Shown in pieces: positions 1,138-3,992 of a DNA stretch of 64,000 nucleotides. This stretch comes from an uncultured Pelagibacteraceae bacterium (lineage in GTDB: Bacteria > Pseudomonadota > Alphaproteobacteria > Pelagibacterales > Pelagibacteraceae), in the NCBI GenBank assembly GCA_902585265.1, contig CACICY010000002.1, positions 1 through 64,000 on the forward strand, given 5' to 3'. The notes under the pieces were generated by a model, which saw nothing but the letters and a program-made list of their open reading frames with translations, was not told the DNA's origin and searched no databases. The first letter of the stretch is position 1. Each line of letters begins with the position of its first letter. The translations under genes and the position numbers were made by a program.

Positions 1138-2268
1138 ATGAAAAAAATTGCAATTATTGGTGGAGGAATATCAGGCTTATATTTTGCAAATATTTTAAAT
1201 AATCAAAAACAATTTGAATATAAGATATTTGAAAAAAAAGATAATTATAATTTTCTTGAAGGTTATGGAATTCAATTATCAGTGAATAGTATAAAATTAT
1301 TAAATAGTATTGGATTTAAAAATGTATCTGCATCTGAGATCAGCTTTCCTACAAAAGTGAATTTCATACAAGCAAATAATTCAAAAAAAATCTGTGAGAT
1401 AGACCTTACACAATTTAATGATTATACTAATAGATATACAACACTTAAAAGATCAACATTATTAAAATTCTTATTTCAAAACGTACCAAAAGAAAAAATA
1501 AAATTTAATTCAAATATAACAAAAGTAGAAAATTCAAATGGCATCACAATTTCTTTTGGAGATAATAAAAATGAGAAATTCGATTATTTGATTGTTTCTG
1601 ACGGTATTTTTTCACAAACAAAGTCATTAATATTTAATGAAAGTATATATCCAAAATATAATCTTAATGTTGCATTGCGAGGTAAATTAAAAGGTGATTA
1701 TGGTAGTGATATTTCAATATATATGGGATCGAATAGTCACTATGTGATCTATCCTGTAAATCAAAATAACGAGCATAATTTTGTAGCGATTGTAAAAAAA
1801 AAATTATCCTCAGATCAATTAAAAAATTATGATTTATTTAAATCTACAGAATTTTTGAACTCTTTAGTATCTGGATTGCAAAAAACATCCCAAATAAGCT
1901 TTGAAAATTTAAGTGAATTGAAATCATTTCCTGTTTATGTCAGCAGCGACTTTCCAGGTTATAATAAAAAAAATATATTTTTATCAGGTGATGCTTTATT
2001 CACTTTTCCCCCATCATTTGCTCAAGGAGCCTCTCAAAGTATCGAAACTGCAAATGATATATTAAAAAGTATTTTGAAAGGTACAAATGAATTCTATCAA
2101 GAAAGGATTCGGAGTATTTCTTCTATAAATAATAAATCTAAGTTAAACCATTTTTCATTTCACTTATCAAATCCCATCAATATTTTTATTAGAAATAAAA
2201 TTTTGAAATATCTCTCAAAAAATAAAAAATTTCTTGAAAGTTATTTGGGTAAAATTTACAGAGCTTAA
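1138..2268 (+). CDS. FAD-dependent monooxygenase (UbiH / salicylate hydroxylase-like)
   Basis: This is a 376-residue flavoprotein of the class A aromatic hydroxylase fold. The N-terminus carries the Rossmann dinucleotide motif IAIIGGGISGLYFAN. A central YLIVSDGIFSQTK corresponds to the DG motif, and LSGDALFTFPPSFAQGASQSIE is the GD motif that binds the FAD ribityl. Together these define a hydroxylase or epoxidase acting on an aromatic or polyprenyl substrate. The substrate cannot be read from sequence. UbiH-type ubiquinone hydroxylation is possible, but the closest resemblance is to salicylate hydroxylase/zeaxanthin epoxidase-like members. It follows mutY by 4 bases and converges on ccrM with a 4-base TTAA overlap of both stop codons. 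Confidence 0.8.
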   Translation: MKKIAIIGGGISGLYFANILNNQKQFEYKIFEKKDNYNFLEGYGIQLSVNSIKLLNSIGFKNVSASEISFPTKVNFIQANNSKKICEIDLTQFNDYTNRYTTLKRSTLLKFLFQNVPKEKIKFNSNITKVENSNGITISFGDNKNEKFDYLIVSDGIFSQTKSLIFNESIYPKYNLNVALRGKLKGDYGSDISIYMGSNSHYVIYPVNQNNEHNFVAIVKKKLSSDQLKNYDLFKSTEFLNSLVSGLQKTSQISFENLSELKSFPVYVSSDFPGYNKKNIFLSGDALFTFPPSFAQGASQSIETANDILKSILKGTNEFYQERIRSISSINNKSKLNHFSFHLSNPINIFIRNKILKYLSKNKKFLESYLGKIYRA

Positions 2269-3338
2269 TTTGTAGGCCTTAATCTTTGTCTCAAATCATC
2301 AATTGGTTTTAAAGAATTTCCAGATTTATAATGCCAAAAAGTCCATCCGTTACAACTTTCTGCACCAATAATTTTTGCTGCAACTTTATGGATTGAACCC
2401 TCCGATTGTTGATATTTTATACTTCCATCCACCATAATTTTAGCATTTACTTTTTTCTTTTGATCATAAATTTCTGTTCCAGGTTTTATCAAGCCCATTT
2501 CAACTAATGATCCAAAAGGAATTCTTGGTTTAGATCTATTATTTTGAAGTGTATCAAGATATTCATCTTTTATGACATCTGTATTTTCTAATCTTTTTTT
2601 TGTAGCGTCAAAATAATTTTTTTCTTTTTCAATTCCAAAATACTTTCTACGTAATTTTTTAGAAACAACAGCCGTGGTACCTGATCCTAAAAATGGATCT
2701 AAAATAAAATCATTTTTATTTGATGAGGCTAATATTATTCTATGGAGTAACGCTTCTGGTTTTTGAGTAGAATGGACTTTTTTTCCATTGTTTTTTAATC
2801 TTTCTTTGCCATTACAGATTGGAAGGTTCCATGTAGATCTCATTTGGAGGTCATCATTCAAGCATTTTAATGATTGATAATTGAAAGTGTATTTCGACCC
2901 CTCACTTTTTGATGCCCAAATAAGTGTTTCATGTGCGTTAGTAAACCTTGTTCCCCTAAAATTTGGCATTGGATTATTTTTATTCCAAATTACATCGTTT
3001 AGTATCCAAAAACCTAAATCTTGGATTGTAGCACCCACTCTAAAAATATTGTGATAACTACCTATTACCCAAATCGATCCATTCTTTTTTAAAATTCTCT
3101 TACATTCTTTTAACCAATCAAAAGTAAATTCATCATAACTTTTAAAACTTTCAAATTGATCCCATTTATCGTCTACAGCATCTACTTTAGATGTATCCGG
3201 TCTGCTTAATTCTTTTTTTAATTGAAGGTTGTATGGGGGATCAGCAAAAATAAGATCAAAAGTTTCATCAGGAATTTTTTTTAATTCCTTTAAACTATCT
3301 CCATTAATAATCTTGTTTTTTAAAGTTTGATTACTCAT
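2265..3338 (-). CDS. ccrM: CcrM-type adenine DNA methyltransferase (GANTC)
   Basis: This 357-residue protein is a beta-class N6-adenine methyltransferase. It has the catalytic DPPY motif early (FADPPYNLQL) and the SAM-binding FLGSGTT late. The C-terminal RAMA-like domain (IPFGSLVEMGLIKPGTEIY ... GWTFWHYK) is typical of CcrM/HinfI-type enzymes of alphaproteobacteria, which methylate GANTC and act in cell-cycle control. There is no restriction endonuclease beside it, so it is an orphan methylase. Three GANTC sites lie in the 75 bases upstream, two of them inside the predicted promoter. The GANTC specificity is inferred from family resemblance. Confidence 0.92.
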   Translation of the reverse strand: MSNQTLKNKIINGDSLKELKKIPDETFDLIFADPPYNLQLKKELSRPDTSKVDAVDDKWDQFESFKSYDEFTFDWLKECKRILKKNGSIWVIGSYHNIFRVGATIQDLGFWILNDVIWNKNNPMPNFRGTRFTNAHETLIWASKSEGSKYTFNYQSLKCLNDDLQMRSTWNLPICNGKERLKNNGKKVHSTQKPEALLHRIILASSNKNDFILDPFLGSGTTAVVSKKLRRKYFGIEKEKNYFDATKKRLENTDVIKDEYLDTLQNNRSKPRIPFGSLVEMGLIKPGTEIYDQKKKVNAKIMVDGSIKYQQSEGSIHKVAAKIIGAESCNGWTFWHYKSGNSLKPIDDLRQRLRPTN

Positions 3339-3351
3339 TTTCTAATTATTA

Positions 3352-3380
3352 ATTAGACTCCAGAGTAGAGTCTCCGTCAA
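3352..3380 (-). promoter_or_regulatory. ccrM promoter with embedded GANTC sites
   Basis: On the minus strand a -35 TTGACG (3375-3380) is followed after exactly 17 bases by -10 TCTAAT (3352-3357). These match the sigma-70 consensus at 5 of 6 positions each. GANTC sites sit at 3356-3360, overlapping the -10 edge, and at 3368-3372 in the spacer. The two halves form a 6-base inverted repeat (AGACTC/GAGTCT). A third site lies at 3400-3404. The predicted transcription start is only a few bases before the ccrM ATG. Control by methylation is inference. Confidence 0.6.
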
Positions 3381-3413
3381 CCTGAGATTGAATTATTTTG
3401 AGTCTACTTGTTA

Positions 3414-3992
3414 CTATTTTTTTTTAAGACTCAATATGTTGTGTATAGGACTGAATGTTTTTCGATGAAATCTAGTTACTCCATATTTTCTAATAGCATT
3501 AATGTGATCTCTAGTCCCATAACCCGCATTTAAATCCCATTTATATTTTTTAAAACTTTCTGACATTTTGATCATCAGTTTATCTCTCGAAACTTTTGCA
3601 ATTATTGATGCTGCTGAAATTTGTTTAATTTTTTGGTCTCCTTTAATTATAGTTTTAACAAGATAATTTCTTAATTCTGGTGATTTATTTCCATCAATAA
3701 GTACTAAATTTGGTTTAACTTTTAGTTTTTTTATAGCTCTCTTCATGGCTAATAAACTAGCATTTAAAATATTTAGTTTTTCTATTTCCTTAACTGAGGC
3801 AGATCCTATAGTCCAAATAGAATTTTTTTTTATATATTTTGCTAATTTTTCTCTATCAATCTTATTTAACTTTTTTGAATCTTTTATCTCTTTCTTGTTA
3901 ATATTTTTTTTTAGAATAACAGCTGCAGCATATACTGGACCAATTAAACTTCCTCTACCAACTTCATCAACTCCAGCTATAATTTTTCTCAT
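3414..3992 (-). CDS. rnhB: Ribonuclease HII
   Basis: RNase HII cleaves the RNA strand of RNA/DNA hybrids and single ribonucleotides in DNA. The 192-residue protein opens with the signature IAGVDEVGRGSLIGPVYAAAV, holding the first catalytic Asp-Glu pair. LVLIDGNKS supplies the next Asp, and SAASIIAKVSRDKLM is the classical later motif. Length is normal for the family. Its ATG shares its A with the stop codon of the 44-residue membrane ORF upstream (TAATG), so translation is probably coupled. ccrM follows on the same strand after 75 bases. Confidence 0.95.
   Translation of the reverse strand: MRKIIAGVDEVGRGSLIGPVYAAAVILKKNINKKEIKDSKKLNKIDREKLAKYIKKNSIWTIGSASVKEIEKLNILNASLLAMKRAIKKLKVKPNLVLIDGNKSPELRNYLVKTIIKGDQKIKQISAASIIAKVSRDKLMIKMSESFKKYKWDLNAGYGTRDHINAIRKYGVTRFHRKTFSPIHNILSLKKK

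Follow-up and report, generated by a model that had tools for sequence, protein, structure and literature searches.

A conserved pair of GANTC sites in the ccrM core promoter: a probably methylation-responsive architecture in SAR11 and other Alphaproteobacteria

Introduction

The closest described systems are the ctrA P1 and mipZ promoters of Caulobacter, an organism encoding both GcrA and CcrM, in which GANTC lies in or beside the -35 and -10 elements of a sigma-70-type promoter. GcrA binds to domain 2 of sigma, and at methylated promoters it promotes formation of the open complex (PMC7403470); its binding differs between fully methylated, hemimethylated and unmethylated GANTC, and on methylated ctrA P1 it protects the DNA from -35 to -10 (PMC3667746). 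The Caulobacter crescentus ccrM promoter region likewise contains GANTC, and its activity is described as restricted to hemimethylated DNA (PMC2217572); this gene is activated by CtrA, of which Pelagibacter has no orthologue (PMC2877005). GcrA control of ccrM is not a new proposal. According to the available text of a 13-species study of the GcrA regulon, ccrM is a predicted core target in alphaproteobacteria of many orders on the basis of extended GANTC motifs upstream, the control is predicted to have been lost in part of the Caulobacterales, and GcrA acts mainly as an activator (PMC7987155). That portion of the study describes neither a core-promoter architecture nor a register with the -10, does not sample SAR11 densely and makes no connection to bablM.

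The last of these, bablM (Rfam RF01784), was put forward as a candidate structured RNA by Meyer et al. 2009, who located it in Pelagibacter, with rnhB on one side and the methylase gene on the other, and saw no mutations in its first stem and few compatible changes in its second (PMC2704228). It covers the same DNA and the same conserved letters as the ccrM promoter described here.

Relative to ctrA P1 and mipZ, the SAR11 ccrM gene differs in having two GANTC sites within one core promoter, the second of them locked to the -10, in that the target is ccrM itself, and in the conservation of the layout across families. The promoter layout, its register with the -10, its largely exclusive location and the depth of SAR11 sampling are the new elements of this work.

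The ccrM locus and its promoter

The analysed window is the whole 64-kb stretch of SAR11 DNA. Its ccrM gene starts at 3338 and the conserved upstream neighbour rnhB ends at 3414, with the promoter between them on the minus strand. The relevant features are as follows.

2265-3338, minus: ccrM, GANTC adenine methyltransferase, 357 aa (Pfam, NCBIfam and PDB matches)
3335-3404, minus: match to Rfam RF01784, 'bablM sRNA' (51.2 bits, gathering score 38, E 6e-6)
3351-3356, minus: alternative -10 register CTAATT, with an 18-base spacer (class-wide CANNNT pattern)
3352-3357, minus: -10 element TCTAAT, non-consensus, overlapping the -10-edge GANTC by 2 bases
3356-3360, minus: -10-edge GANTC site, GAGTC on the minus strand (sequence)
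3368-3372, minus: spacer GANTC site, GACTC on the minus strand (sequence)
3375-3380, minus: -35 element TTGACG (sequence); TTGAC constant in 110/110 of the genus, 0 parsimony steps
3376-3392, minus: near-dyad TTCAATCTCAGGTTGAC, 17 bp, overlapping the -35; candidate operator (genus conservation)
3400-3404, minus: third GANTC site, 24 nt 5' of the -35 (sequence)
3414-3992, minus: rnhB, ribonuclease HII, conserved upstream neighbour (ORF list and profile matches)
3428-3432, minus: fourth GANTC site, within the rnhB 3' end (sequence); retained in some subclades only

A first-pass annotation of this DNA had proposed a ccrM promoter with -35 TTGACG, 17 intervening bases and -10 TCTAAT, one GANTC at the -10 edge, another in the spacer, a third 28 bases further upstream and a fourth in the end of rnhB, and each of these elements is present at the position given. 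The inverted repeat AGACTC/GAGTCT to which it drew attention exists as well and adds little information, since GANTC is palindromic and any two copies make one. The gap between the two core sites is 7 in this genome.

A consensus scan of 3200-3600 returned no sigma-70 promoter and detected neither -10 register, and TCTAAT lacks the consensus A at position 2; on these grounds the ccrM promoter is non-consensus here, yet it is conserved. When the class-wide register described below is applied to the genus of the window, the -10 becomes CTAATT with an 18-base spacer in place of TCTAAT with 17, and both readings are imperfect.

The identity of the gene, named ccrM in the same annotation, is borne out by PDB 6pbd, the structure of Caulobacter CcrM, with which residues 9-354, nearly the whole protein, align (E 5e-141). 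A profile search found the Pfam domains N6_N4_Mtase and RAMA, so that homology to the Caulobacter enzyme is full-length and includes the C-terminal RAMA domain expected of a CcrM; the NCBIfam CcrM model scored 579 bits, under its curated cut-off of 830. Long reads of the cultured Pelagibacter strain NP1 indicate that 99.86% of GANTC is fully methylated (PMC9516812). A second, shorter CcrM-like methylase with ~48% identity to this CcrM occurs in a few SAR11 genomes (loci G140:C2:31287-32045 and G447:C27:6552-7328).

GANTC density in the window and its background

GANTC is depleted in the 64-kb window, with 92 sites observed against 177 expected. Under uniform placement, four sites within 77 nt anywhere in the 64 kb have P = 0.013, and three in the particular 75-nt rnhB-ccrM gap have P of ~0.0002 to 0.0015. 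The cluster, earlier called striking, is thus notable but only moderately unlikely in the window taken alone (P ~0.01), and is not decisive. Across a 464-kb background set, comprising the window and 400 kb of a closed relative, GANTC occurs at 2.0/kb between predicted genes and 1.1/kb within them, in agreement with the published picture for Alphaproteobacteria (PMC3973325), and the relative's 400 kb contains no cluster of four sites in 80 nt. Outside SAR11, GANTC density is 15.6/kb upstream of ccrM vs 1.6/kb in ccrM coding sequence. Two other promoter candidates in the window with GANTC at the -10 (57083 and 59184) were dropped, as they lie inside mur/ftsW-type coding genes. It is conservation, not local clustering, that decides the case.

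Conservation of the GANTC pair within SAR11

Comparison of ccrM upstream regions from 110 genomes of the genus revealed a rigid promoter frame, with TTGAC-N18-TCTA in 110/110 sequences and TTGAC and TCTA(A/C)T at constant spacing. The -10-edge GANTC is retained in 109/110 genomes and the spacer GANTC in 103/110, while a third GANTC stands exactly 24 nt upstream of TTGAC in 70/110. On a tree built from the ends of rnhB and ccrM, most of the freely evolving columns of the flanking spacer underwent 9-31 changes, compared with 0-1 for the -10-edge GANTC columns and 7 for the presence of the spacer GANTC. All four letters are seen at the central base of the spacer site, which occurs in two registers one base apart at a constant -35 to -10 distance; judged from the alignment, this combination of fixed GA/TC, free centre and moving register is the pattern that would be expected of selection for the methylation word. 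The centre of the -10-edge site, by contrast, is always G in the genus, and for this reason its conservation could partly reflect ordinary promoter or protein-binding constraint rather than methylation.

Extended to the whole interval, such constraint would make the GANTC letters part of a protein-binding site, for a regulator of ccrM or as a sigma preference, with methylation irrelevant. A separate near-dyad, TTCAA-N7-TTGAM, is equally conserved and nearly private to ccrM, as such an account would have it. The spacer site, however, keeps exactly G, A, T and C while its N is free and the whole word shifts register; the GANTC word recurs in distant families with different flanks; and other palindromic pentamers are rare in the interval, except AGNCT, which overlaps GAGTCT. 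We regard a methylation-independent origin of the letters as improbable.

Twelve further genera of the family (g2-g13) were then compared. The pair is present as in the window in g6, g11 and g13; the spacer GANTC alone occurs in g2, g5 and g10, and the -10-edge GANTC alone in g3, g7, g8 and 1/3 of the sampled g12 genomes; g4 carries a GANTC pair that is placed differently. In a second SAR11 family, the pair takes the form TTGACctcGATTCtattttGAATCATATTA in 3/4 sampled genera, and the fourth has the -10-edge site alone. At least one core GANTC is thereby kept in 15/16 further SAR11 genera. The alignment of the rnhB-ccrM region across SAR11, proposed with the original annotation as a check, thus shows the pair conserved relative to the promoter in the genus and in much of SAR11. 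The pair is not obligatory, as g9 and 2/3 of the sampled g12 genomes have no core GANTC while retaining both ccrM and GcrA. Loss of GcrA was considered as the cause of this loss and rejected, as GcrA is kept in both genera.

Class-wide architecture

Conservation also holds beyond SAR11. Of 68 other alphaproteobacterial genomes sampled across the class, approximately one per family, nearly half (30/68) carry the layout TTGAC-N(2-5)-GANTC-N(4-7)-GANTC upstream of ccrM; the other 38/68 lack the strict architecture, and 200 rounds of letter shuffling gave 0 matches to it. Measured from the first base of TTGAC through the last base of the second GANTC, the layout spans 24 nt in 26/30 and 25 nt in 3/30; in 30/30 the -10 begins with the final C of that second site, and the hexamer so formed reads CANNNT in 28, with A as its second base in 29/30 and T as its sixth in 28/30. 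Given this constant total length and the last C that starts CANNNT, the second GANTC is locked to the -10, whereas the first floats. Of 32 non-SAR11 loci, from named organisms or MAGs, 14 likewise show the layout; Novosphingobium, Altererythrobacter, Qipengyuania and a Rhizobium MAG are among them.

The architecture is therefore not peculiar to what had been called a lineage with a minimal cell-cycle network, as 30/68 other alphaproteobacterial genomes carry it. Across 28 whole genomes the motif matched 40 times, ~21 of them at ccrM by coordinate matching, and a reversed control pattern matched 6 times in the same genomes, which makes the motif largely private to ccrM genome-wide. A wide SAR11 regulon sharing the pair was not found, the pattern search in SAR11 returning almost only ccrM.

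GcrA, the reader of methylated GANTC

A gcrA homologue, the search for which had likewise been recommended, is present across SAR11, in 137/149 genomes of the genus and in 43/46 genomes covering all 16 SAR11 genera tested, and SAR11 GcrA matches the solved Caulobacter GcrA. It was not found in the genome that supplied the window, which is 69% complete, and this absence probably reflects the incompleteness of the assembly; most of the close relatives of that genome encode GcrA. The widespread presence of GcrA contradicts the picture of a network stripped of its reader and led us to reject GcrA absence as the key to the feature. The Pfam GcrA model PF07750 also scores above its cut-off in the archaeon Sulfolobus acidocaldarius, which means that matches to this family model are not confined to GcrA.

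As in GcrA/CcrM-responsive promoters, GANTC stands in or beside the -35/-10 region of the SAR11 gene. The SAR11 sites do not match the Caulobacter extended motif YGAKTCG; the -10-edge sites read GAGTCT, with a preceding base that is mostly G or A. Brevundimonas GcrA is similarly reported to go without a YGAKTCG-type extension (PMC7987155).

Relation to the bablM element

The window matches RF01784 well above threshold (51.2 bits vs 38), and the same place is matched in other genomes too. In keeping with that model, the stretch might act as a small RNA or 5' leader, as RF01784 and Meyer et al. 2009 have it. The match itself and the folding of one subclade (L020), which is better than that of its shuffles (z -3.7), speak for such an RNA, whereas for the other three of the four sequences folding is at best slightly better than that of shuffles. 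Stem 1 of bablM is the near-dyad over the -35, and stem 2 consists of the two palindromic GANTC sites, whose two N positions form an internal mismatch. Outside the GANTC letters the stem 2 pairs show no excess covariation (47/62 paired vs 45.7 when shuffled, P 0.31), the other such pairs being trivially constant on one side, and stem 1 hardly varies, in line with the sparse stem changes seen by the original authors. In 106/110 sequences 12-14 nt separate the end of the -10 from the ATG, which would put the transcription start only ~5-8 nt ahead of the ATG and leave almost the whole bablM element upstream of that start.

With a stem made of GANTC sites, an absence of covariation, weak folding and an element upstream of the predicted start, the RF01784 stretch is probably a promoter rather than a small RNA. 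Both stems fall on promoter features, the -35 dyad and the GANTC pair; a DNA promoter explains the data better, and we consider a structured RNA very improbable.

The near-dyad TTCAATCnnAGGTTGAC may be the operator of a separate regulator. Its TTCAATC and GTTGAC parts are nearly invariant in the 110 genus sequences, and it occurs in ~1 copy per genome, at ccrM. In the genus it lies over the -35; other SAR11 genera have it overlapping or following the -10. An operator common to many genes was rejected, as the dyad is found almost only at ccrM. In one g2 genome an exact genus-type dyad, TTCAATCTTAGGTTGAC (L191), directly precedes the start of a leucyl aminopeptidase-like gene (pepA), and the ccrM gene of that genome bears a different version of the dyad.

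Proposed mechanism and its alternatives

What we observe directly is the architecture, its conservation, its occurrence largely at ccrM and the fact that SAR11 genomes also encode GcrA; we infer from here the effect of methylation on transcription, the sign of that effect and the role of GcrA at the ccrM promoter. We consider it rather likely that ccrM is expressed from a sigma-70-type promoter with two CcrM targets at fixed core positions, and that the methylation state is read at the methylase's own promoter. Judged from sequence conservation, this promoter is probably a conserved methylation-responsive, autoregulatory one, and probably GcrA-dependent. GcrA bound to sigma domain 2 would read m6A at the -10-edge site and help the poor -10 to open. 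When the replication fork passes, the core site would go from fully methylated to hemimethylated and promoter output would change; the altered output would last until new CcrM restored full methylation, and this hemimethylation cycle would couple ccrM expression to replication.

A variant of the autoregulatory idea differs in both reader and sign. When fully methylated, the two core GANTC sites could directly hinder RNA polymerase, without GcrA, so that replication would leave the promoter hemimethylated, ccrM would fire and CcrM would shut its own promoter in a self-limiting pulse. The GANTC sites overlap the -10 and the spacer, the right place for such an effect, and a published description has Caulobacter ccrM transcribed from hemimethylated DNA alone (PMC2217572). 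However, GcrA is retained across SAR11 and is mainly reported as an activator (PMC7987155), and the poor -10 suggests that help is needed, not relief alone. Such direct repression is, in our view, possible but rather unlikely; we give slight preference to GcrA-mediated activation, acting on methylated or hemimethylated DNA.

In its broadest form, the proposal is that TTGAC-N(2-5)-GANTC-N(4-7)-GANTCANNNT would be an epigenetic element of autoregulation, ancient in Alphaproteobacteria and largely specific to ccrM, which in the CtrA-less SAR11 would supply a main cell-cycle input to ccrM as a GcrA-read switch from replication fork to methylase burst, with bablM as a DNA element and not an RNA; for this whole, we find confidence and doubt evenly balanced. 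If it holds, a methylase tuned by its own mark would be an old feature of the class, kept in very small, free-living, CtrA-less genomes, and very abundant ocean bacteria would possess a simple link between DNA replication and methylation. Existing long-read methylation and RNA data from Pelagibacter would become informative at one known locus, and the Rfam family RF01784 would need correction.

Other GANTC arrangements and genomic position

GC skew sampled in one closed genome places ccrM roughly mid-replichore, an uninformative position. Aestuariivirga sp. (L296) and Taklimakanibacter lacteus (L297) carry four GANTC sites in ~40 nt upstream of ccrM with no TTGAC layout. Six non-ccrM copies of the motif, in six alphaproteobacterial genomes, directly precede a short DivIC/FtsB-type septum gene, with PF04977 confirmed for three; there the motif reads TTGAC-N5-GANTC-N(4-5)-GTGATTC (L394, L397, L402, L404, L414 and L421), a second recurrent tandem-GANTC promoter.
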